Assembly: GCF_016025255.1 (NCBI RefSeq)
Contig: NZ_CP065592.1
Coordinates: 229,122-293,121, forward strand
DNA length: 64,000 nt
DNA from: Sphingosinicella flava
Lineage (GTDB): Bacteria; Pseudomonadota; Alphaproteobacteria; Sphingomonadales; Sphingomonadaceae
Direction: 5' to 3'
The translations under genes and the position numbers were made by a program. Position 1 is the stretch's first letter; the number at the start of each line of letters is the position of its first letter. The notes under the pieces are model-generated. The model did not search any database and was not told where the DNA came from. It saw nothing but the letters and a program-made list of their open reading frames with translations. Of this stretch, positions 9,292 through 60,374 are shown in pieces.

Positions 9292-9686
9292 AATGCGGGT
9301 GGATGCTCGCCGCTTTAATGGCGGCCGCCGCACCCGCTTTTGCAGTGGGAATGGGCCCGCTCGCTAAAAGCGGCCTTACTGACGGGCCGCGCAAGGCCTT
9401 TTACCTCACCGTCATAAATCCTTATCCGGCGGCGGCATCGTTCAAAGCCTATGCGGTCGGCGTCGACGATGAAGAGGTCCAATCGCGCGTGCGCATCCTA
9501 CCCGAAGCGACGATCCGCATCGGCGCGAAGCAGAATAGGCGCATCCTGGTCGTCGCCGACGATCTGGAGCCCGGTGAGACGTTCGCCTTCCGGGTCTGCG
9601 CGGCGAAGGCAGAAATGGTGGAAGGAATGGTTCATGCGCGCGTTTGTTCGAAACTGTCTGCGCGCCGCATCGCTCCTCGCGCTTAG
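9279..9686 (+). CDS. Periplasmic pilus-chaperone-like single-domain protein
   Basis: 135 residues; start overlaps the end of the preceding gene by 13 bp. A signal peptide (MLAALMAAAAPAFA) precedes a domain with FYLTVINPYPAAASFKAYAV, VRILPEATIRIGAKQNRRILV and GETFAFRVCA, which resembles the N-terminal Ig domain of PapD-type chaperones (strand, NP turn, P-x-x-F/I rule, then basic G1 region). The second chaperone domain is missing, so it may be a reduced chaperone or a related Ig-fold protein. No usher gene is nearby. Confidence 0.5.
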   Translation: MPAVKCGWMLAALMAAAAPAFAVGMGPLAKSGLTDGPRKAFYLTVINPYPAAASFKAYAVGVDDEEVQSRVRILPEATIRIGAKQNRRILVVADDLEPGETFAFRVCAAKAEMVEGMVHARVCSKLSARRIAPRA

Positions 9687-49299: not shown

Positions 49300-50520
49300 T
49301 TATTCGCCTTCTTCCTCCAGGCCATTCACCGCCGCTGCAATGGCCTGTTGGCGGCTCAAGGGCGCTTTTGCCTTCGATGCTGGCGGTTGCTGCTGAACGG
49401 CGAACTGGGCCACGCCGTGATCGCCCTTCGAATAATCGATGACCGCGCGGACGACATTTTGCATCGTCTCCATCCGGTGGCCGAGCGGCGCGGACGTGCG
49501 GCGGATGAAAACGGCGACCGCATAGGAACGGCCGTCCGGCCCGGTGACGATGCCGATATCGTTATAGCCCGCCTGCTCGCCGCCGAGCACCTGGCCCGTG
49601 CCGGTCTTGTGCGCGAGCTTCCAGCCCGGCGCGAGCCCGCCTTTCAATCGCTGTGCGCCGGTCTTGGTGTTCGACATGATGCCGAGCAGTTTCTGGGTAT
49701 AATAAGGCGAAAGCAGCTCGCCTTTCTTGAGCCTGGTCAGCGCATCCACTGTGCCGAGCGGCGTCGCGCCGTCCATTGGGTCGCGAATGTAGTTTTCAAA
49801 GGCGGCGCGGCGAACGGCCATCGGCAGGGCATTGCGCGCGGCGTAGAAGTTCTGGCCAACATAGGATGGTTTCCATTCCATGCCCGCAATCCGGCTTTGC
49901 AGCATGCGCTCGCCCGGGCCAAAGCGGATGCCGCTGATCCCGCTCTTCTTCAGAAACGCGCGCACCGCGTCGGGCCCGCCCGCTTTCCACAGCACGAAAT
50001 CGTTGCATGTATTGTCGCTCTGCGTGATCGCGCGATGGATCAGGCTGTCGAGCGTGGTCGTGTAACCGGCGGGGCCAACCTGCGCGGCGATGGGCTGGTG
50101 GAAAAGCGTCAGGTCTTCCCGCCGCACGGTGACTGGCGATTCAAGGCTCAGAAGGCCCTGGTCGGCCTTGTCCATGGCGGTCAGTGCGACCCAGAATTTG
50201 CTGACGCTCTGTTGCGGAAAGAAGGTGCTGCCGTCGAACGATGCGGTGTAGCCGCTTTGAATATCCTTCACCGCAATGCCGACATCGCCGTTGAATGAAG
50301 CACCAAGTGCGTTGATCCGCTGCGCCAACGCCCGTTCGGCTGGAGATAGGGCCTGGGTCTGGACGAGCGGCTTCGCCGCCACCGGCCCGCGGCCTTGCGC
50401 TGTATCCGCGCTTCTGGCGGCGCTTTGCGAAACTGAAATGCCGATCAAGGAGGCGCAAGACAAAGCGATGACGCCGATCGTCCGTCCGATGCTCGCCGAA
50501 TTACGCCGGTGTTCCGTCAT
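49300..50520 (-). CDS. Class A beta-lactamase (serine hydrolase)
   Basis: 406 residues from ATG 50520. Signal peptide, then SVSK (Ser70-x-x-Lys73), SDN (130-132), E166 in GERMLQ and KTG (234-236). Counting from SDN puts Glu at 166 and Gln at 170, where class A enzymes usually have Asn. A 45-residue Gln/Ala-rich tail follows the catalytic domain. Periplasmic penicillin-type hydrolase is likely; spectrum unknown. It lies 37 bp upstream of the TetR gene on the same strand. Confidence 0.88.
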   Translation of the reverse strand: MTEHRRNSASIGRTIGVIALSCASLIGISVSQSAARSADTAQGRGPVAAKPLVQTQALSPAERALAQRINALGASFNGDVGIAVKDIQSGYTASFDGSTFFPQQSVSKFWVALTAMDKADQGLLSLESPVTVRREDLTLFHQPIAAQVGPAGYTTTLDSLIHRAITQSDNTCNDFVLWKAGGPDAVRAFLKKSGISGIRFGPGERMLQSRIAGMEWKPSYVGQNFYAARNALPMAVRRAAFENYIRDPMDGATPLGTVDALTRLKKGELLSPYYTQKLLGIMSNTKTGAQRLKGGLAPGWKLAHKTGTGQVLGGEQAGYNDIGIVTGPDGRSYAVAVFIRRTSAPLGHRMETMQNVVRAVIDYSKGDHGVAQFAVQQQPPASKAKAPLSRQQAIAAAVNGLEEEGE

Positions 50521-50660
50521 ATCAGGAAGGCCCTTCCAAATCGCATGGTGTTCAGAGCCTTGGCACCATAACCAATACGGTGTGACTGTCAGCTTAATCG
50601 AAATGCTGTCGGATGGACCGTTTTCCAGAAGCGATGAAACGAGTCCCATCGCAGCAATAA

Positions 50661-50715: not shown

Positions 50716-52836
50716 GTGTCCCAAACTGCCCTGCTGCTTGCCACCACGATCTTTGCCGCTGCTCCGGCTGCCGCCCAGGACGCGGCTGTTCCCGAAGCCC
50801 AGAATGACGATTTTCACGAACAGGAGCCGCAGGACATCATCGTGACGGCCGATTACGTTCGCGACCTCAGCATTCTCGCCGGCACGCAGACGTTGAGCGG
50901 GGACGAATTGGTCCGCGACCTGCGTCCACAGATCGGCGATACGCTGACCCGCCTGCCCGGAGTTTCGGCGACCTCTTTCACCGCGGGCGCTTCCCGGCCG
51001 GTGCTTCGCGGTTTTCAGGGCGAACGCGTGCGCGTGCTGACCGACGGTATCGGCTCCATCGACGTGTCGAATACTTCGGCCGACCATGCCGTCACCATCG
51101 ATCCGCTGACCGCCGAGCGGATCGAGGTGCTGCACGGTCCCGCCGTCCTGCTGTTCGGCAGCCAGGCGATCGGCGGCGCGGTCAACGTTCTCGACAAGCG
51201 CATTCCGCGCCGCGTTCCCGACGAGATCCTCCATACCGATATCATCGCCACTTATGGCTCGGCCGCGAACGAACGCAGCGTCGGCGGGGCGGTAGACACG
51301 CCGCTTGGCGGCGGCTTCGTCCTTCATTTCGACGGCAGCCACCGCAAGACGGGTGACGTGGAAGTTGGCGGCTATGTCTTGTCGCAAGCCCTGCGTGCCG
51401 AACAGCTGGACATCGCGGCCGAGGAAGAGGCCGAGGGTCATGTTGGGGAAGCGGAGGAAGCACGGGAATTGGCAAGCCTCAAAGGCCGCGTGCCGAACAG
51501 CGCGACCGAAACGACCACTTATGCGGGCGGCCTCTCCTTCATTCGCGACGGCGGCAATATCGGCTTTTCGGTCAGTCGCTACGAAAGCGATTATGGCGTG
51601 CCCGCCCGTCCCGGCGCCGAACATGCCCATGGCGAGGAGGAGCCGGAGGAAGAGCATGGCCATGGCGAAGAGGATGTGACCATCGGCCTTCGCCAGACCC
51701 GTGCCGACTTGCGCGCCGAAGTGGAGACCGGCGGCTTTATCGAAAAATTGCGCAGCCGCATCGGCTTCGCCGATTATTCCCATACGGAGTTCGAAGGCGG
51801 AGAAGTCGGCACCGTTTTTCGCACTCAGGGATTGGAGGGGCGGCTGGAGGCCGTTCAGGCCGATCGCGGCGGATGGCGGGGCGTTACCGGCGTCCAATTC
51901 TTCAACCGGGATTTTGCGGCCATCGGCGCGGAAGCCTTCGTGCCTGAAAACCTCACCAGCCATATCGGCTTGTTCACCTTGCAGGAAATAACGCTTGGGC
52001 GATGGGGCCTGGAGGGGGCCTTGCGATACGAACATAGCGACATCGTATCCCGGCCGGCCGGTTTCGATCGCGACTTCACGTCCTTCTCCGCTGCCGCGGG
52101 CCTGTCCTACGATATCGCGCCGCAGATGGTTGCGGGGATGAGCCTGTCACGCGCAGAGCGCTCCCCCTCGGCGGAGGAGCTGCTGTCCAACGGCCCGCAC
52201 ATCGCGACCCAGGCCTTCGAGGTCGGCAATCCGGACTTGAAAACCGAAAAGAGCTGGGGCGGCGAGCTTTATCTGCGCGGCCAATCGCGCGGCTACCGTT
52301 TCGGCGTCTCGGTCTTCGGCAACCGCTTTGACGATTACATCTTCGAAGCCGCGACGGGGGATGAAGAAGACGGCCTGCCGGTCTTCGCTTATGACCAGAA
52401 AGACGCGACTTATTATGGCGTGGAGGGCGAGCTTTCCGCGCCCGTCGCCGAAATGGGCGGCTTCCGTTTCGTCGCGGATGTCGTCGGCGATTATGTCCGC
52501 GCGACGATCAAGGATGGCGGCAACGTGCCCCGCATCCCGCCCCTCCGCCTGCTCGGCGGGATCGAGGCGCAATCGGAAAAGATCGACGGACGCGTCGAGG
52601 TTGAATGGACCGCCGATCAAGCCAAGGTCGCCGCCTACGAGACAATGACCGAGGGCTTCACCATGGTGAACGCCTCGCTCGCCTGGCGCCCCTGGGGCCG
52701 CGACCGCAATGTCAGCCTCGTCCTGTCGGCCAGCAATATCTTCGACGTCGAGGCACGCCGCCACGCCTCCTTCACGAAGGATTATGTGCCGCTGGCGGGG
52801 CGGGATTTGCGGGCGAGCGTCCGGCTGAGCTTCTAA
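50716..52836 (+). CDS. TonB-dependent receptor, probable zinc/metal (ZnuD-like)
   Basis: 706 residues from GTG 50716 (AAGGAGT). Signal peptide ending AAAAQ, a TonB box-like DIIVTA, plug domain (GDTLTRLPGVSATSFTAGASRPVLRGFQGERVRVLTDGI), then a 22-strand barrel ending SVRLSF. Two loops are rich in His and Glu, e.g. EHAHGEEEPEEEHGHGEED at about 300, typical of ZnuD-type zinc receptors. Likely takes up zinc or a metal complex. Confidence 0.88.
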   Translation: MSQTALLLATTIFAAAPAAAQDAAVPEAQNDDFHEQEPQDIIVTADYVRDLSILAGTQTLSGDELVRDLRPQIGDTLTRLPGVSATSFTAGASRPVLRGFQGERVRVLTDGIGSIDVSNTSADHAVTIDPLTAERIEVLHGPAVLLFGSQAIGGAVNVLDKRIPRRVPDEILHTDIIATYGSAANERSVGGAVDTPLGGGFVLHFDGSHRKTGDVEVGGYVLSQALRAEQLDIAAEEEAEGHVGEAEEARELASLKGRVPNSATETTTYAGGLSFIRDGGNIGFSVSRYESDYGVPARPGAEHAHGEEEPEEEHGHGEEDVTIGLRQTRADLRAEVETGGFIEKLRSRIGFADYSHTEFEGGEVGTVFRTQGLEGRLEAVQADRGGWRGVTGVQFFNRDFAAIGAEAFVPENLTSHIGLFTLQEITLGRWGLEGALRYEHSDIVSRPAGFDRDFTSFSAAAGLSYDIAPQMVAGMSLSRAERSPSAEELLSNGPHIATQAFEVGNPDLKTEKSWGGELYLRGQSRGYRFGVSVFGNRFDDYIFEAATGDEEDGLPVFAYDQKDATYYGVEGELSAPVAEMGGFRFVADVVGDYVRATIKDGGNVPRIPPLRLLGGIEAQSEKIDGRVEVEWTADQAKVAAYETMTEGFTMVNASLAWRPWGRDRNVSLVLSASNIFDVEARRHASFTKDYVPLAGRDLRASVRLSF

Positions 52837-52877: not shown

Positions 52878-55559
52878 CTAGAACTTGACGCCGAGGCCCA
52901 GCGAGACGGTAGTGCCGACATCGTAGCCATTGTTGACGATGCGGACTTCGTCCTGCTGATATTCGAGATAGTCGGTGCCGGTGATATTCCGCGCCTCGAA
53001 CTTCAGCTCGATCTCCTTATCCCCGATCATGAATCCCTCGCGCGCCACGAAATCGAGGCGCAGACCGGGCCGTTCGACGATATCCGCCTGGCGGACGTCG
53101 CCCAGGACCGGACCGCGATTGGTGACGCGCTCGCTCGCATAGGTGAGCAAAAGGGTCTGCTGCGACAGGCGCTCGCTATTTTCGAGGCCGAGCTGCAGGT
53201 TCGCGAGATGCTTCGACTGGCCGGTCAGCGGGTCGCCGTCCCCGAACACTTCCGACGCGGGGCGGAGGCCGCGATTGTCGTTGATGATCGTCTCGTCATC
53301 CTCATCGACCTTCAGGCTCGATTGGCTGAAGGTGTAATTGGCGATCGCGACCGCGCGGCGATTGGCGAAAAAGCCGCCGAGGCCTTCGAGCGGAAAGTAT
53401 TTCTGCACTTCCAGCTCGAAGCCATAGAGGTCCGCCGCCGGCGCGTTGGCGAAGGTCGTCTGCAGCGTGCCGCCGCCCGCGAACGAGGCGACCGCTTCGA
53501 TCGGATTGTCGATCCGCTTGAAGAAGCCCGCGACGCTCAGGCGCTGTTCGCGGCCGAAATAATATTCGTAGCGCGCTTCGGCATTGTAGAGTTGGCTGTC
53601 GACCAGGAACGGGTTGCCGACGAACTGGCGATCCGAATCGATGTCGAGATAGATTTGCGGCGCCAGCTCGCGAAATTGCGGGCGGGCCAGTGTCTTGGAC
53701 GCGTTGACGCGCAGCTGCATGTCGGGATTGATGTTCCAAGTCACCGTCGCGGCGGGGAGCAGATAGCTTTTCTCGATCGCGTCGGGCTGGACGATGCCGC
53801 CCTGGTTGAACAGGTCGATCTGCTCCACCGACTGCTTGCCATCCTCATAACGGACACCCGCGTTGAAGCTGAGCGTCGAGCCAAGGTCCGCCGCGGCCTG
53901 GGCATAGAGGCCGAAAACTTCGAGACCGGCCTTATAGGCGGCGGCACCGGCCAGCGCGGAGGTTTCGACGAGCAGGATGTCGTAAGTATAGATATTGTAA
54001 TCCGAGACCAGATAATCGGGCCGCTCCTGCGACACGGCGAGACCGAGGCCGTCGGCCGGGCGATAGGCGAAGTCGCGGCGGACGGAGTCGCGCTGCGTGT
54101 TGAGATAGGACAGGCCCCCCGACAGGGTGAGACGGGTGTCCGGCAGGCGATGGCTGAAATCGAGCCCGGCATTGTAGACGTCTTCGTTCAAGTCGCTGAA
54201 CGACACCGTCGCGCTCTGTCCGGTCGCGGTCAGGTTGTTGACATAGTCGCCCGCTTCTTCGCTGTAGAGATAGCTGAACCCGCGCTCATAGGGCGCCTCG
54301 CGCTGCGAATTGGCATAGCCGATGCGGACGTCCATGTTGACGTCCGCGATCTTGAATTCGCCGACCAGCTGCGAATTGATCAACTGCCGCTCGAACCAGC
54401 CGGTGTTCTGGCGGATGAGCTGCGGCGGCAGATCGGGGTCGGGGTCGCCCACCGACAGGCTGTAACCGGACGCCAGCCGCGCTTGCTTCAACGTGTCGCG
54501 GATATAAAGATTGGTCCAGCGCAGCTTATTGGCGCCGAATTCGGCGCCAAGGCCGATAAGGCCGTTCACGACGATGCGGTTGTCGGTGCGGACCGACCGG
54601 AAATCGCTGGCGATGGTATCGAGCCCTCCGGACTGCTGGACGGCGTCGCGCGTCTTCCAGCTGTTGGAGAAACCGGCGGTCGCAATGAGGCCGAGGCGGA
54701 TGTCGCCATTGTCCCAGGCGGTCCCGCCATTGACGTCGAAGGCGAAATTGGCCGGGATATTGCGGTTGCGCTGGACGAGCGTCGTCGGCGCGTTGAGCAG
54801 GCTTGCGGCAATGGCCTGAATGTCCTCGCGGCTGAACACATTGCCCTCGTTGACGAGCGCACCGGCATCGAGCGCCGCCCGCAGCGGGGAGGGAATGTCG
54901 CGCGCGCCATCGTCGAAGCCGGTCCAGTCGGTGTCGCTGCCATAATAAGTATAGCCGAGTTGATTCGTGGTTTCGGTGTCGCCGCTGACGCTGCCCCCGA
55001 TCGAAAAGAACGGTTCGCGCGGAATGGCGGAGGTGGTGAGGTTGATGACGCCGCCGCCGAATTCGCCGGGATAATTCACCGAATAGCTTTTCTGCACGAC
55101 CGAGCTGGCGAGTATGCTGGTCGGAAAGATGTCGAGCGGCACGACGCGGCGCAGCGGCTCGGGCGAGGGGAGGGCGAGGCCGTTCAGAAGCGCGAGCGAA
55201 TAGCGGTCGCCAAGCCCGCGCACATAGACATAGCCGTTGCCGACGACGCTGAGGCCAGTCACGCGCTGCAGCGCTCCGGCAATGTCGCCGTCGCCGGTCC
55301 GCGCGATGTCCGCCGCCGACAGGACGGAGACGACTTCGGGCGCGACGCGAATGACGTTCGGCACATTGCCGACGACTACAATCTCCTGCCCTTCATCCGC
55401 GTCCGCGCCGGGACCGGAAATGTCCAGCTGCTCTTCCTGCACCACGCCGGCTTCAGCGTCGGGCGGGCTGGTCCCGGCCGTTTCGTCTTGCGCCAAAGCG
55501 GGCGCGCTGAGCGCGGTGGTGAGGAGAAGGAGGCTCCCGAGCTTGAGCGCCTTCGTCAT
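52878..55559 (-). CDS. TonB-dependent receptor of the phosphate-linked cluster
   Basis: 893 residues from ATG 55559 (GGGGGA). Signal peptide ends APALAQ. TonB box region EIVVVGN, plug domain with RVTGLSVVGNGYVYVRGLGDRYSLALLNG, then a large barrel ending LGLGVKF. The plug is of the RGLGDRYS type found in large alphaproteobacterial receptors. Ligand unknown. It follows the beta-helix lipoprotein by 79 bp on the same strand and they are probably cotranscribed. Confidence 0.92.
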   Translation of the reverse strand: MTKALKLGSLLLLTTALSAPALAQDETAGTSPPDAEAGVVQEEQLDISGPGADADEGQEIVVVGNVPNVIRVAPEVVSVLSAADIARTGDGDIAGALQRVTGLSVVGNGYVYVRGLGDRYSLALLNGLALPSPEPLRRVVPLDIFPTSILASSVVQKSYSVNYPGEFGGGVINLTTSAIPREPFFSIGGSVSGDTETTNQLGYTYYGSDTDWTGFDDGARDIPSPLRAALDAGALVNEGNVFSREDIQAIAASLLNAPTTLVQRNRNIPANFAFDVNGGTAWDNGDIRLGLIATAGFSNSWKTRDAVQQSGGLDTIASDFRSVRTDNRIVVNGLIGLGAEFGANKLRWTNLYIRDTLKQARLASGYSLSVGDPDPDLPPQLIRQNTGWFERQLINSQLVGEFKIADVNMDVRIGYANSQREAPYERGFSYLYSEEAGDYVNNLTATGQSATVSFSDLNEDVYNAGLDFSHRLPDTRLTLSGGLSYLNTQRDSVRRDFAYRPADGLGLAVSQERPDYLVSDYNIYTYDILLVETSALAGAAAYKAGLEVFGLYAQAAADLGSTLSFNAGVRYEDGKQSVEQIDLFNQGGIVQPDAIEKSYLLPAATVTWNINPDMQLRVNASKTLARPQFRELAPQIYLDIDSDRQFVGNPFLVDSQLYNAEARYEYYFGREQRLSVAGFFKRIDNPIEAVASFAGGGTLQTTFANAPAADLYGFELEVQKYFPLEGLGGFFANRRAVAIANYTFSQSSLKVDEDDETIINDNRGLRPASEVFGDGDPLTGQSKHLANLQLGLENSERLSQQTLLLTYASERVTNRGPVLGDVRQADIVERPGLRLDFVAREGFMIGDKEIELKFEARNITGTDYLEYQQDEVRIVNNGYDVGTTVSLGLGVKF

Positions 55560-55638
55560 AACAATCCCCCGAAATTCTTGAATGAAGGAAAGGGGGCGGC
55601 GATCGCTGCCGCCGCCCCCGGTAGGTGCGTCGACTGGG

Positions 55639-57153
55639 TCAGCTGACCGGAATGGCCGTGCAGGCCGCGCCGCTGCCGAAGGGCGCATAAGCGGAATCGC
55701 AGGTCCAGCCGCGATACCAGGTGTCCTGCGCATCCCGCACCGCACCGATATAATTGGTGTTAGTGAAGAAGGCGCTGATCGTGGACAGGGTCGTGAAGGC
55801 GGGCACCGCCGTCTCGTTCGCGCCATTCACGAAAAGGTTCGTGAGGGTCGAGACGAGCGCCGAATTGTTGTTCGTGCCCGCGCTGAACGTCGGCGCCTCG
55901 AAATTGTCCGCGTCCGCGTCGAAAGCGGTGGGGCAGGAGAAGGCGACCGAGCGGAAGACGGGGATGCCCGCTTCGTCCGGGCCGGCGGTCTGCACCGTCT
56001 GCGCGGTGTCGATGTCGAGGCAGCCGGTCGGGCCGACCACGACGCCGTTGTAGAGCGCGTAATCGGTGCCGCCGCGCAGCAGGATGGCGTTGCGGCCCGT
56101 CCGGCGCTGGATGAAGGTGAAGTTGGCGAGGCGGGTATTCTGGCGCGGCGTCGCGTCAAACAGGCCGTCGTCGGTGGAGTCCGCCTCGATCATCGTGTCG
56201 CCGGTGGCGCCCGCCGCCTGGTCGCGCTGGATCGCGAGGACGAACTGGATAAAGCCCTTGTAGCCGACATCGGTATCGAGGCCGTCATCGTCGGCGCCGG
56301 TGATGACGATGTTCTTCATGTTCTGGCGGCCGCCGAAAATCTCGATGCCGTCGTCGCCGCTATTGTGGACCTGGATGAATTGCAGGTTCGTGCCCGAACC
56401 GACGCCGCCGGTGGTCAGGCCCTGAAGCTCGTTGCCCTCGATGAGGGAGAAGCCGGTGTAGCGGATCTGGACATAGCGCATCGAACCGCTGCTGTCGGCC
56501 GCGACATTGCCGCCATAAAAAGCGTTGGCGCCCGGGCCCTCGACCAGCTTCTGACAGCCCGCCGTGCCGCCTTCGGCACCGCCGTCGCAATTGCTGATCG
56601 GGGCGCGGCCAAGGAGAATGATGCCGCCCCACTGGTTCGAGCTGTTGTCGGTTGCAGTCCCGAGCAAATTCTGGCGCGAGGTGAAGATGATCGGGTTGGT
56701 CTGGGTGCCGTCCGCGAAAATCTGCGAGCCGCGATTGACGACCAGGAAGTCAGCGCCCGACGCGCCGAAGAGGACGGCGCCCGGCTCGATCGTCAGGCTG
56801 GCCGATTGGCCGCCGGCGGCAGCGCCGTCGCCGCCGACATCGACACCGACATTGACGCGGCCGGAGAGCGCATAGGCCACGCCTTGGACATTGCGGACGA
56901 CCGTCTGGCCGCTGATCTGGTTCGGCAAGCGGCAGACCCGGCGATTGGCGAGAATCTCACCGCCATCGGTCGTGCCGGCTGGACAGGAAGAGGCGGGAGT
57001 GCCGGGTGGGGGCGGGGGCGGAGGCTGCGGCGTGCCGCCATTGCCGCCAGGGACAATCACGCCCTCTCCCGGTGAAGCGACATCGTCGGCGCCGCACGCC
57101 GCCAATGGAAGCGCGGCGAAGCCAAGAAGCAGGATGTGGCGAAGAGAAGACAT
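55639..57153 (-). CDS. Beta-helix lipoprotein, receptor partner candidate
   Basis: 504 residues from ATG 57153. Lipobox LPLAAC at about residue 20, then a Pro-rich linker (QPPPPPPPGTP). The body has regular strand turns with polar ladders (WGGIILLGRAPISN, YVQIRYTGFSLIEGNELQGLTT, IQVHNSGDDGIEIFGG, VITGADDDGLDTDVGYKG), as in right-handed parallel beta-helix proteins. A lipoprotein likely on the cell surface. It pairs with the downstream TonB receptor; enzymatic function unproven. Confidence 0.85.
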   Translation of the reverse strand: MSSLRHILLLGFAALPLAACGADDVASPGEGVIVPGGNGGTPQPPPPPPPGTPASSCPAGTTDGGEILANRRVCRLPNQISGQTVVRNVQGVAYALSGRVNVGVDVGGDGAAAGGQSASLTIEPGAVLFGASGADFLVVNRGSQIFADGTQTNPIIFTSRQNLLGTATDNSSNQWGGIILLGRAPISNCDGGAEGGTAGCQKLVEGPGANAFYGGNVAADSSGSMRYVQIRYTGFSLIEGNELQGLTTGGVGSGTNLQFIQVHNSGDDGIEIFGGRQNMKNIVITGADDDGLDTDVGYKGFIQFVLAIQRDQAAGATGDTMIEADSTDDGLFDATPRQNTRLANFTFIQRRTGRNAILLRGGTDYALYNGVVVGPTGCLDIDTAQTVQTAGPDEAGIPVFRSVAFSCPTAFDADADNFEAPTFSAGTNNNSALVSTLTNLFVNGANETAVPAFTTLSTISAFFTNTNYIGAVRDAQDTWYRGWTCDSAYAPFGSGAACTAIPVS

Positions 57154-57258
57154 AAAACCCCCTTGTTGAAACAAGTTGCAGTCCCGGCGTCGCGTCCTTG
57201 GCGATTCCGTTGCTGCGGGGATTAGGCGTCCTCTATGGCGGTAATATTACAGGACAGG

Positions 57259-57322
57259 AACAATATTGCTGTTAACTCAAATAGTTATGACACATAACTT
57301 TCAAAAGAGCTTAACAATATTG
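57259..57322. promoter_or_regulatory. AT-rich regulatory region upstream of lipoprotein/TonB-receptor genes
   Basis: Two copies of AACAATATTG (57259-57268, 57313-57322), each with the palindrome CAATATTG, flank a perfect inverted repeat AGTTATG-ACA-CATAACT (57283-57299). The region is far more AT-rich than its surroundings and lies 106-170 bp before the lipoprotein start. A dimeric regulator probably binds; no full Pho box is visible. Confidence 0.5.
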
Positions 57323-57327
57323 TCATA

Positions 57328-58131
57328 TTAGCGAATGCGGATGTCCCGGCTGGCCCTTTGGCCGTCGCGCTCGAAAACGAGCCGCGCCATTGGCGCGCTC
57401 GTCAGTTGCTCTGCCAAGGCATGGAGCCTTTCCTCACTGTCCAACATCTCGCCGTTGACGGACAGCAGGATATCGCCCTGCTGCAGTCCGGCGGTGCCGA
57501 GCATCGGCAAGGCCGCCGCCGATTTGACGCGATAGCCGACGATGTTGGGTCCAACCTTTCGGGGTTCCAGGCCGAGACGATAGCGGGTCGTCGCCTCCTG
57601 CCGAGCGACGGGCATGACAGTCACGGGTGCGGAGGTTGAAGCCGTCCCCGCAGGCGCGGCTTGCGATTGCGTCACGGGTTGCGCGGGCTTGTTGAAGTCG
57701 AGGCGCATGTCGCCGGTGGGAGTGGCGAGAATCGCATGATCGGCACCCACCGCCTTCACCGTGATTCCGGGCGCCAATGTCCGTCCCGCGGTGAGGAGGC
57801 GCTGCCCGCCGCCCGGCAGACCGATGACCGCCGCGCGCCCTTTCGCGCCGCCGCCGCCGACACCGAACAGAATATATTGCGAGAGATCTGCCGGGGGGAC
57901 GGCGGTGGGGACCGGCGGGGCAACCGCCAGTTGCGGAGGCGCGGGGGGTGTGATGGGAGCCTGGGCCGTGATCTCCACTGCCGGAACGGCCGCCTCCTCG
58001 GCATCGGGCCAGAACAGATAGGCGAGCAATCCAGCGATGACCGCGCCGCCCCCGGCGAGCACGGCGGCTTGGCGGCGTTTCTCGGCGGGTGTCGAAGCGG
58101 CGGCGAGTCTAACGTTCGTGATCGAGAGCAT
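57328..58131 (-). CDS. GspC-like type II secretion protein with PDZ domain
   Basis: 267 residues. Short cytoplasmic N-terminus, one span (VLAGGGAVIAGLLAYLFW), a Pro-rich linker, an HR-type domain (LSQYILFGVGGGGAKGRAAVIGLPGGGQRLLTAGRTLAPGITV), and a C-terminal PDZ domain (VGYRVKSAAALPMLGTAGLQQGDILLSVNG). This is the layout of GspC, the periplasmic link to the secretin. It overlaps phoB by 23 bp. Other gsp genes are not in the window apart from a prepilin peptidase. Confidence 0.82.
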   Translation of the reverse strand: MLSITNVRLAAASTPAEKRRQAAVLAGGGAVIAGLLAYLFWPDAEEAAVPAVEITAQAPITPPAPPQLAVAPPVPTAVPPADLSQYILFGVGGGGAKGRAAVIGLPGGGQRLLTAGRTLAPGITVKAVGADHAILATPTGDMRLDFNKPAQPVTQSQAAPAGTASTSAPVTVMPVARQEATTRYRLGLEPRKVGPNIVGYRVKSAAALPMLGTAGLQQGDILLSVNGEMLDSEERLHALAEQLTSAPMARLVFERDGQRASRDIRIR

Positions 58132-58801
58132 AGCCCGCCGACCTTACGGTGCGAACGAGATCCTTGCCACCGCCTTCGTTGAGGGCGAGGCGAAGGCGCC
58201 GGATGTGGACGTCCACGGTCCGCGCCTCGATATCGGCATCGCGGCCCCAGACGCTGTCGAGCAGCCGCTCGCGCGAGAAGACGCGGCCGGGATGCTCCAT
58301 GAAATGCTTGAGCAACCGGAATTCGGTGGGGCCGAGCGGCACGACGCGTCCGTCGCGTCGCACCTTGTGCGTCGCGATGTCCATTTCGACATCGGCATAA
58401 TTGAGCGTCGCGCCCGCCAAGGCGGGGCGGACGCGGCGCAGCACCGCCTTCACCCGTGCGACAAGCTCGCGCGGGCTGAACGGCTTCGTCACATAATCGT
58501 CGGCGCCGGTTTCGAGGCCTCGGACCCGGTCCGCTTCCTCCCCGCGCGCCGTCAGCATGACGATCGGGATGTTCGCCGTTTCCGGCATGCGGCGCAGGCG
58601 GCGGCACACTTCGATGCCCGACAATTCCTCCAGCATCCAGTCGAGCAGAATGACGTCGGGATTGAATTCCTGCGCGATGACCAGGCCTTCCTCGCCGCTT
58701 GGGCTGTGCTGGACGTCGAAATCCTCCCGCTCGAAATTATAGGTGAGGAGCTGCGCGAGCGGGGCGTCGTCCTCCAAAATCAGCATGCGGCTCTGGGGCA
58801 T
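58109..58801 (-). CDS. phoB: Phosphate regulon response regulator PhoB
   Basis: 230 residues. Receiver with LEDDAP, phospho-acceptor Asp in ILLDWML, KPFSP; winged-helix output LGPTEFRLLKHFMEHPGRVFSRERLLDSVWG...RTVDVHIRRLR, very close to PhoB. It activates phosphate-starvation genes. Start overlaps the phoU stop (TAATG). The kinase PhoR and pst genes are not in the window. Confidence 0.94.
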   Translation of the reverse strand: MPQSRMLILEDDAPLAQLLTYNFEREDFDVQHSPSGEEGLVIAQEFNPDVILLDWMLEELSGIEVCRRLRRMPETANIPIVMLTARGEEADRVRGLETGADDYVTKPFSPRELVARVKAVLRRVRPALAGATLNYADVEMDIATHKVRRDGRVVPLGPTEFRLLKHFMEHPGRVFSRERLLDSVWGRDADIEARTVDVHIRRLRLALNEGGGKDLVRTVRSAGYALDHER

Positions 58802-59565
58802 TATCGTTCGGTCCTGCGAGGGGCGAGATCGGGATCCTGGCTGGCGGCGCGCAGCCGCTCTCCGGTGACGGAAAAATGAACGACCTCCGCCACGATCGCG
58901 GCATGGTCGCCGATCCGCTCCAGGCTCTGCGCGATGAAGAGGAGGTGGGCGCAGGGCGTGATCGTCTGCGCATCTTCCATCATGTGGGTGAGGAGGGCGC
59001 GGAAGAGGCTGTCGTAGAAATCGTTCACGACGCGCCGCTGCTGGGTCATGGCGAGGGCTGGCAGCGGATCGCGCGCGGCGAAGGCGTCAAGCGCTGCCGT
59101 CACCACCCCCTTAACCGTCGCCAACATGGCGGGCAGGACGGAGATCGGTTCGATCCAGCGATGATCCTGCATGATCGCCACGCGGGTCGCGATATGCTTG
59201 GCGAAATCGCCCAAGCGCTCGATCAAGACCGCGATCTTCAGCGCTGAGACGATTTCGCGCAGATCGTCGGCCATGGGCGCGCGCAGGGCAATGATGCAGA
59301 CGCCTTCGCGCTCGATCACCGCCGCCAGCGCATCGATGCGGCCATCCTCGGCGATCACGCGGGCCGCGAGCGCCGAGTCGCGACGCATCAGCGCCTGGGT
59401 CGCATGGTCGATCGCGGCTTCGGCGAGCCCGCCCATTTCGGCGACGAGGGCGCGCAACCGCTCCAGATCGTCGTCGAACGCCTTGACCGTATGTGCGGCC
59501 GGTGCAGTCACATCGCCTCCCTGTCGCGCCGCTTCGGGTATGGGCGGCGCATCATTCTCCGGCAT
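58801..59565 (-). CDS. phoU: Phosphate signalling protein PhoU
   Basis: 254 residues, two three-helix repeats of the PhoU fold (LRALVAEMGGLAEAAIDHATQALMRRDSALAARVIAEDGRID and the second at LIERLGDFAKHIATRVAI; SLERIGDHAAIVAEVV near the end). Represses PhoB signalling when phosphate is plentiful. Cotranscribed with phoB. Confidence 0.95.
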   Translation of the reverse strand: MPENDAPPIPEAARQGGDVTAPAAHTVKAFDDDLERLRALVAEMGGLAEAAIDHATQALMRRDSALAARVIAEDGRIDALAAVIEREGVCIIALRAPMADDLREIVSALKIAVLIERLGDFAKHIATRVAIMQDHRWIEPISVLPAMLATVKGVVTAALDAFAARDPLPALAMTQQRRVVNDFYDSLFRALLTHMMEDAQTITPCAHLLFIAQSLERIGDHAAIVAEVVHFSVTGERLRAASQDPDLAPRRTER

Positions 59566-59624
59566 GGCCTAGGAAATTTGCGCGTGACTTCGGTGACAGT
59601 CGTGTGAAGTTTTGATGAAAGGCG

Positions 59625-60374
59625 TCAGGCCCGGACGAGCCAGAGCAACCATCCCGACAAAGCGAGATATGTCCCGAAAGGAAGGCGCGTTTGCCGGTCC
59701 ACGATTGTCCCGCGCAAGGGGGCAAGCGCGACGGCGATGAGGCCAAGCAGGGCGGCGATCAGGATGAGAAACGGGAGAGCCTGCCAGCCCAGCCACGCGC
59801 CAAGCGCGCCAAGCAGCTTGGGGTCGCCGCCGCCCAGGCCCTGCCGTCCCCGGAAGATCTGATAGGCCGCACCCAACAGAAACAGTCCGCCAAAGCCGAT
59901 CGCCGATCCGGTCAGGCGGTCGCCGATCGGCGGGCCGATACCGGCCAAAGCGACGAGCAAGCCCGCCATCCATAAGGGAAGGGTAAGCCGGTCCGGCAAC
60001 CATTGATGCTCGGCATCGAGCGCCGCGAGGATAAGCAGCCACCAGCCGAAAAAAGCGGTCGCGATGGCGAGGGGGAGGGGGTGGGCGATGGCGGCGGCGA
60101 TGCCGATCAGCGCCGCCGCCGCTTCGATGCCGGGATGACGCGGATCGATCCGGCTGCCGCATGTCCGGCACTGTCCCCGTGCGCGCAGGTAGGACCAAAG
60201 GGGAATTAGGTCTCGCGCATCAAGCGTCCGGCCGCATCCGTCGCATTGCGATCGCCCTCCCGATACGCTGCGGCCGGCCGGCCATCGAATGAGGATGGTC
60301 GCGAGAAAACTTCCAGCGATGGCGCCTGCGACCGCAAGGCCGATCGCGGGCAGAAACGGAACTGGCGCGGCTAT
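59625..60374 (-). CDS. Prepilin peptidase (GspO/PilD, A24), non-standard start
   Basis: An open frame of 249 residues shows the complete family: AGSFLATILIRWP, paired Cys motifs CDGCG and CRTCG, the catalytic Asp in ALDAEHQWLPDRLTLP, and GGGDPKLLGALGAWLG with the second Asp. No ATG, GTG or TTG occurs in frame before TTG inside the Asp region. A perfect AGGAGG ends five bases before ATA at 60372-60374, the most likely start. It cleaves and methylates pseudopilins. Upstream of phoU on the same strand. Confidence 0.82.
   Translation of the reverse strand: MAAPVPFLPAIGLAVAGAIAGSFLATILIRWPAGRSVSGGRSQCDGCGRTLDARDLIPLWSYLRARGQCRTCGSRIDPRHPGIEAAAALIGIAAAIAHPLPLAIATAFFGWWLLILAALDAEHQWLPDRLTLPLWMAGLLVALAGIGPPIGDRLTGSAIGFGGLFLLGAAYQIFRGRQGLGGGDPKLLGALGAWLGWQALPFLILIAALLGLIAVALAPLRGTIVDRQTRLPFGTYLALSGWLLWLVRA

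Follow-up and report, generated by a model that had tools for sequence, protein, structure and literature searches.

In Caulobacter crescentus, the surface lipoprotein gene elpS (cc0170), a TonB receptor gene (cc0171) and gspC-N form one cluster, and a similar tandem order was named for Sphingomonas alaskensis (PMC2996285, which, like the other papers cited here, was available in part). ElpS is produced in Caulobacter under phosphate starvation, is exposed on the surface even in a gspC-N deletion, and requires the type II secretion system (T2SS) for its release, probably via a secreted protease (PMC2996285). In the same species, PhoB acts on T2SS genes and on TonB receptors (PMC11208175). The core link between ElpS, the receptor, the T2SS and phosphate is already published for Caulobacter. 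We here describe an elpS locus of Sphingosinicella flava, located in a 64,000-nucleotide stretch of contig NZ_CP065592.1 (positions 229,122 to 293,121; hereafter "the window"), in which additional phoU and phoB genes precede elpS. We propose, with a probability of about two in three, that these genes together form a surface-scavenging module within the Pho regulon, similar to the ElpS system of Caulobacter but equipped with an additional Pho switch. Among the matches listed from open-licence PMC literature, titles and abstracts do not describe an elpS cluster with a phoB copy, and the extra Pho switch at elpS and its wiring look new.

The row consists of six genes in the order gspO, phoU2, phoB2, gspC2, elpS and TonB receptor, all on the minus strand. 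An earlier sequence-only reading of the window had recognized these six genes on one strand, and profile matches and coordinates place them at about the same positions. The overlap that it reported between phoB and the GspC-like gene amounts to 23 nucleotides, and its statement that pst genes and phoR are missing agrees with the part of the window that was read (48-64 kb), where none was seen. The genome of the window (2.42 Mb, one contig, with the window starting at C1:229122) is referred to as G000; other G numbers denote genomes of relatives, and L numbers denote loci. Comparisons were made across a family set of 119 genomes, 85 of them with ElpS, and a genus set of 26 genomes, 15 of them with ElpS. 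The features of the row are as follows:

~59625..60374, minus strand: gspO-like prepilin peptidase; Peptidase_A24 62.5 bits (cut-off 26.5) on the 124-residue piece 59625-59999; 61% identity to the G053 relative
59591..59623, minus strand: three weak Pho half-sites with a spacing of 11 bp, upstream of phoU2; consensus 19/24, matrix 7.9 and 6.9 bits
58801..59565, minus strand: phoU2, PhoU paralog; TIGR02135 182.3 bits (cut-off 130.25), two PF01895 stretches; 53% identity to the pst-locus PhoU
58109..58801, minus strand: phoB2, PhoB paralog; TIGR02154 333.4 bits (cut-off 296.2), receiver and DNA-binding Pfam domains; 74-75% identity to the pst-locus PhoB
57328..58131, minus strand: gspC2, second GspC-like protein with a PDZ-like C-terminus; sub-threshold T2SSC 22.0 and PDZ_6 22.4 bits (cut-offs 27)
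57233..57254, minus strand: Pho box upstream of elpS; matrix 17.6 bits, conserved in G053
55639..57153, minus strand: elpS, beta-helix surface lipoprotein; lipobox LAAC, homologs in 85/119 family genomes, AlphaFold model
55592..55619, minus strand: GC-rich stem-loop between elpS and the receptor gene; 11-bp stem
52878..55559, minus strand: TonB-dependent receptor beside elpS; Pfam TonB_dep_Rec and Plug above cut-off

A canonical locus, phoR-pstS-pstC-pstA-pstB-phoU-phoB, sits elsewhere in the genome (C1:~181-188 kb, ~41 kb before the window start), and phoU2 and phoB2 were for this reason rejected as the main Pho regulators. At the pst locus PhoU and PhoB were named by profile, and the remaining names were read from translations. 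Judged by sequence, phoU2-phoB2 are paralogs of the pst-locus pair and an element that is new compared with the published Caulobacter cluster. In the alignment, PhoB2 and PhoB1 are identical through what we take to be the DNA-reading stretch; most of the receiver domain, including the LLDWM stretch, is also identical, and some receiver positions differ. Between G000 and G053 identity is 94% for PhoB2, 94% for PhoB1, 89% for PhoU1, 78-79% for PhoU2 and 56-58% for GspC2. PhoB2, being as conserved as PhoB1 while its neighbor GspC2 has diverged so far, is therefore under selection.

A phoB copy stands ahead of gspC2-elpS in seven of the 15 ElpS-containing genus genomes (G000, G053, G126, G129, G135, G139 and G142), with a phoB2-gspC2 overlap of 14-26 nucleotides in all seven. 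The recurrence of the gene order in other genomes, which the sequence-only reading had proposed to look for, extends to part of the genus; no phoB copy was found near elpS in 46 loci of other genera, where the best PhoB-type matches reach 32-40% (L061 and L183 end within ~0.7 kb of elpS), and phoU2 within 5 kb of elpS, with coordinates compared by eye, is confined to G000 and G053. This corresponds to two of the 119 family genomes, two of the 26 genus genomes and two of the seven phoB2 loci, and a family-wide association of phoU2 with elpS was rejected.

In a tree of 33 PhoB sequences, the PhoB2 of G000 and G053 clusters with second PhoBs of G119, G123 and G125 that are located elsewhere (support 98/89), and the remaining five elpS-linked PhoBs form a separate group (92/95). 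A single clade of all seven elpS-linked PhoBs is rejected (approximately unbiased test, p-AU 0.006), and a single clade of all 12 second PhoB copies is not (p 0.25). The simplest reading of these sequences would be one old phoB duplication with later moves; two separate captures of phoB would also be compatible with them. The shared phoB2-gspC2 overlap cannot decide between one and two captures, because the PhoB C-terminal codons themselves offer an out-of-frame ATG in most of the seven. Nothing was drawn from the PhoU tree, in which branches were very long and 5 rows dropped out. Around the pst genes of G125, G119 and G123 (L208, L209, L210; L133, L134, L136), the 9 kb fetched contain no phoB beside phoU, and a second-type phoB with a phoU-like gene is found elsewhere in these genomes. 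The second phoU-phoB of G123 and G132 (L136, L135) lies near a T2SS/pilus-type ATPase gene.

We scored Pho boxes with a matrix whose training set comprised 68 upstream regions, of which 63 precede elpS and 5 precede phoB2; G000, G053, pst and gspC1 were left out of it. In 1.2 Mb of simulated sequence this matrix yielded no match at or above 16.8 bits, 0.67 matches per 100 kb at 12 bits and 5.4 per 100 kb at 7.9 bits. The scores in G000 were 20.5 bits for pstS (outside the training set, scored in G000 only), 17.6 for elpS, 16.8 for the gsp operon and 7.9 for phoU2. The elpS box is the best matrix match of the 64-kb window, and the box upstream of gspC is the best of the 19.5-kb gsp locus. These two boxes, together with the Caulobacter data (PMC11208175, PMC2996285), support the earlier suggestion that PhoB controls the T2SS and the lipoprotein. 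Across the genus, elpS reaches at least 16 bits in 13 of 15 loci, including five of the six outside training, and the region upstream of the gsp operon scores 9.7-18.3 bits in eight of nine loci, a count that includes G000 and omits the truncated locus L193. The remaining one, G120, has no box before the gsp operon and is also without ElpS.

Scored with a plain consensus, 36 of 63 elpS upstream regions (here including 4 duplicate loci and G053) reach 20/24, as compared to 0.9% of shuffles, and 31 of these 36 sites are on the coding strand. Before phoB2, all five loci without phoU2 contain a site (24, 21, 19, 24 and 22 of 24), and four loci without phoB2 show 20, 20, 22 and 21 of 24 upstream of gspC2. 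The region upstream of phoU2 scores 19/24 in both G000 (shuffle P 0.027) and G053 (P 0.043), and in the held-out G053 the site scores better at the same place with the matrix (13.8 bits). When 270 upstream regions from the window and from 13 genus loci were scored, 12 bits or more was reached by 20 rows, 17 of which belong to elpS or gsp genes (two of them nested duplicates, with many of the elpS rows derived from training) and 3 to others. A matrix match of 12.8 bits at 9407 of the window falls within a reading frame and was regarded as chance. Pho-box-like sites of at least 12 bits that are outside the cluster or unplaced (L171:11137, L164:14796, L167:14969 and L014:1890, the last with 14.1 bits) are candidates for further Pho-regulon members.

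The main T2SS operon is located at C1:~1.215-1.226 Mb, ~0.93 Mb from elpS. Its gspC, D, F, G, H, J, K, L, M and N were recognized by Pfam and gspE by PF00437; gspI was outside the search. Only gspO and gspC2 adjoin elpS, and the T2SS parts seen in the row by the sequence-only reading are thus present as a gspO and a GspC-like gene, but the rest of the system is far away. By Pfam, GspC1 of this genome has a T2SSC domain and no PDZ match. In 11 of the 15 genus genomes with ElpS (26 genomes searched), the nearest gene detected ahead of elpS is gspC2, which holds the same position in 7 genomes from 5 further genera, in some cases at only 29-31% identity. The C-terminal PDZ that is common in the main GspC of relatives seems, by eye, to be absent in L013, L185, L164, L177, L190, L191 and L192. 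A trade-off in which GspC2 would be present where GspC1 has lost its PDZ does not hold: G124 is without the PDZ, and no GspC2 was detected beside its elpS (C-termini compared by eye).

The name elpS rests on the Sphingomonas alaskensis statement of the Caulobacter paper (PMC2996285) and on an ElpS match in a Sphingopyxis record (L114). Its product has no Pfam or NCBIfam match and no match in a sequence search of the PDB. The AlphaFold model consists mostly of strands arranged as a beta-helix (predicted local distance difference test, pLDDT, 78.6; predicted template modeling score, pTM, 0.82), and a fold search of the PDB retrieved generic beta-helix proteins, with a best E of 0.0087 and none below 0.001. 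A class-wide ElpS search gave 6/190, a figure obtained with one query that is no fair census. We fetched loci around elpS from 40 of the 85 ElpS genomes of the family, chosen non-randomly; the TonB receptor adjoins elpS in 39 of them, and in 9 the first gene detected beyond the receptor, in the same orientation, is gspC. No STN signalling domain was present among the Pfam matches of the receptor at E <= 0.001. Two ElpS-type matches each were found in G067, G088, G008 and G052, and a Flavobacteriales metagenome-assembled genome (L124) has an ElpS relative with 33% identity, so that the family reaches Bacteroidota.

GC-rich arms at the junction of elpS and the receptor gene were also seen, by eye, in 14 of 14 other genus loci (15/15 with the window), and in L053 and L164 folding of a longer stretch favors other pairs. 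The case for a stem-loop rests on position and conservation, since the folding in the window is ordinary for a sequence of this composition (z -1.1). As the stem-loop separates elpS from the receptor gene, the row is not necessarily one uniform transcript; the elpS message might be cut or protected by this structure, which would fit the report that in Caulobacter the receptor gene is regulated separately. A sigma-70 scan gave nothing useful.

We also compared the residues that follow the lipidated cysteine in 93 predicted lipoproteins. Acidic residues at both +4 and +5 occur in 43, which were taken as ElpS by this motif (41 of the 43 have SPG shortly after). Six more ElpS-like lipoproteins are without the pair (L060, L073, L077, L165, L179 and L180), bringing the tally to 43/49 ElpS against 0/44 other lipoproteins. 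The pair is mostly preceded by G-A (A at +3), and K or Q is absent. A count of 20/20 aligned ElpS with the signature is biased, because the loci were found with the pattern AACGADDV, which holds the signature itself. As a DNA pattern, A-C-G-A-D-D occurs once in the window's genome, in elpS; the 26 genus genomes yield 21 matches, of which 12 fall in elpS and 9 outside it, one of the latter (G125, L243) resembling a small lipoprotein. The lipoprotein export signal of Bacteroidota is C-X-K-(D/E)2 or Q-A-(D/E)2 (PMC5080379). The resemblance of the ElpS acidic pair to this signal is a lead and would not by itself imply membership.

The model that we favor combines the gene content, paralogy, conservation and Pho-box sequences observed here with findings made by others in Caulobacter, namely the phosphate induction of ElpS, the PhoB control of the T2SS and the T2SS-independent display, which by analogy may apply here as well. 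Under phosphate starvation, the pst-locus PhoR-PhoB would turn on four Pho-box promoters: those of pst, of the distant gspC-N, of elpS with the TonB receptor, and of phoU2-phoB2-gspC2. Because the DNA-reading stretch of PhoB is kept, PhoB2 should recognize these boxes as well and amplify the module, which would constitute a positive feed-forward loop, and PhoU2 might damp it. GspC2 could serve as a second, PDZ-bearing T2SS adaptor that is made only in starvation. The T2SS would secrete the ElpS-releasing protease, as in Caulobacter, and presumably phosphatases and other hydrolases; ElpS would get to the surface by a route other than the T2SS, where, together with the receptor, it may capture or pass on a phosphorus-containing ligand.

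Several observations weigh against this proposal. By plain consensus the elpS box of the window scores only 18/24, which is non-significant (shuffle P 0.16), and the matrix that scores it higher was trained mainly on elpS upstream regions. The elpS genes of G122 and G124 have no box (2.6 and 1.0 bits), and the phoU2 site of G000 is weak alone, as 7.9 bits is expected ~5.4 times per 100 kb. The regions upstream of gspC2 in the four loci lacking phoB2 score only 1.4, 6.0, 7.5 and 13.0 bits with the matrix, and no consensus site of at least 18 was found before gspO (5/5) or the receptor (2/2). In Caulobacter, T2SS production was called constitutive, with gspE/gspL up 1.7-fold in poor medium (the 2010 paper, PMC2996285), and the receptor gene was reported as constitutive, with data not shown there (PMC2996285). 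Since phoU2 is present at this place in just 2/119 family genomes, it is dispensable. Lastly, gspC2 misses the GspC cut-offs (TIGR01713 40.3 vs 101.6; T2SSC 22.0 vs 27) and is for this reason named GspC-like only; the main gspC1 reaches 78.3 bits with T2SSC, but only 25.1 with TIGR01713.

The sequence-only reading had assumed that a PhoB-controlled T2SS puts the lipoprotein on the surface, where the lipoprotein feeds a phosphorus compound to the receptor. While the T2SS, ElpS and the receptor are linked in many genomes and Pho boxes are common to the T2SS and elpS, the display of Caulobacter ElpS in a gspC-N deletion, with the T2SS serving its release (PMC2996285), contradicts the first step, and here the gsp operon is ~0.93 Mb from elpS; we consider this route improbable. 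It is also unlikely that phoU2-phoB2 are a redundant duplicate, placed here by accident and without any contribution to the phosphate response. Most genomes indeed lack the pair at this place, and phoU2 was not found in five of the seven phoB2 loci; however, PhoB2 is conserved as well as PhoB1 between the two closest species, the gspC2 overlap is kept in 7 genomes, and upstream Pho boxes are found in at least 5.

Alternatively, PhoB2/PhoU2 could form a brake or an insulated branch, with PhoB2 being poorly phosphorylated by PhoR and competing with PhoB1, or answering another kinase. The differing receiver-domain positions would be compatible with such a role, as would the fact that no kinase gene was seen beside phoB2. 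Against it stand the largely identical receiver domain, with its LLDWM stretch, and the three genomes with no phoB in the 9 kb fetched at pst (G119, G123 and G125), whose phoB located elsewhere groups with PhoB2, as though a PhoB of this kind could serve as the main one. We therefore regard a brake or insulated branch as very doubtful, and favor a PhoB2 that reinforces the module. The full combination, with PhoU2/PhoB2 as a private Pho branch, GspC2 as a private T2SS adaptor and a Bacteroidota-like acidic signal that takes ElpS to the surface, is a long shot.

If the private branch is true, the cell could set secretion and surface uptake apart from pst. With a phoB copy before gspC2-elpS in several species, the genus offers a natural case for how one starvation signal may be split into a transporter and a secretion branch. 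If the acidic signal is true, a T2SS-independent route for surface lipoproteins would be common to Alphaproteobacteria and Bacteroidota. Given that ElpS is displayed without the T2SS in Caulobacter, the conserved residues after the cysteine may provide a handle on the surface route of ElpS.

The gspO frame is open from 60395 and contains no in-frame ATG, GTG or TTG before 59999. An ATA at 60374, 5 nucleotides behind AGGAGG, is a possible start, and the G053 relative begins with ATG; the ATA is either a rare start or a sequence error. Beyond the row, a second TonB receptor gene (50716-52836, plus strand) is convergent with the first and encodes His/Glu-rich stretches (EHAHGEEEPEEEHGHGEED), like those of zinc receptors of the ZnuD type. 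A protein encoded at 49300-50649 on the minus strand resembles, by eye only, a class A beta-lactamase (SxxK motif).

Among known systems, the Caulobacter elpS cluster shares with this locus a lipoprotein-receptor pair tied to the T2SS and phosphate starvation; the available part of its description mentions no phoU or phoB, whereas the window has phoU2-phoB2-gspC2 between gspO and elpS, with gspC-N elsewhere (PMC2996285). The C. crescentus PhoB regulon is alike in having the T2SS and TonB receptors as PhoB targets and phoU/phoB at the pst locus, and differs in that no second PhoB is mentioned in the available text (PMC11208175). A surface lipoprotein beside a TonB transporter is also found in the BtuG-BtuB pairs of Bacteroidota (PMC10404256). 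Most ElpS share with the Bacteroidota export signal an acidic pair near the lipidated cysteine, but mostly have G-A before it rather than X-K or Q-A, and 6/49 ElpS are without the +4/+5 pair (PMC5080379). In Agrobacterium tumefaciens 5A, with PhoB1/PhoB2 and arsenic islands, the accessory phoB is tied, in the available account, to arsenite oxidation and transporters and not to secretion or a surface lipoprotein, but as in our proposal a second phosphate regulator acts on an accessory cluster (PMC3834237).

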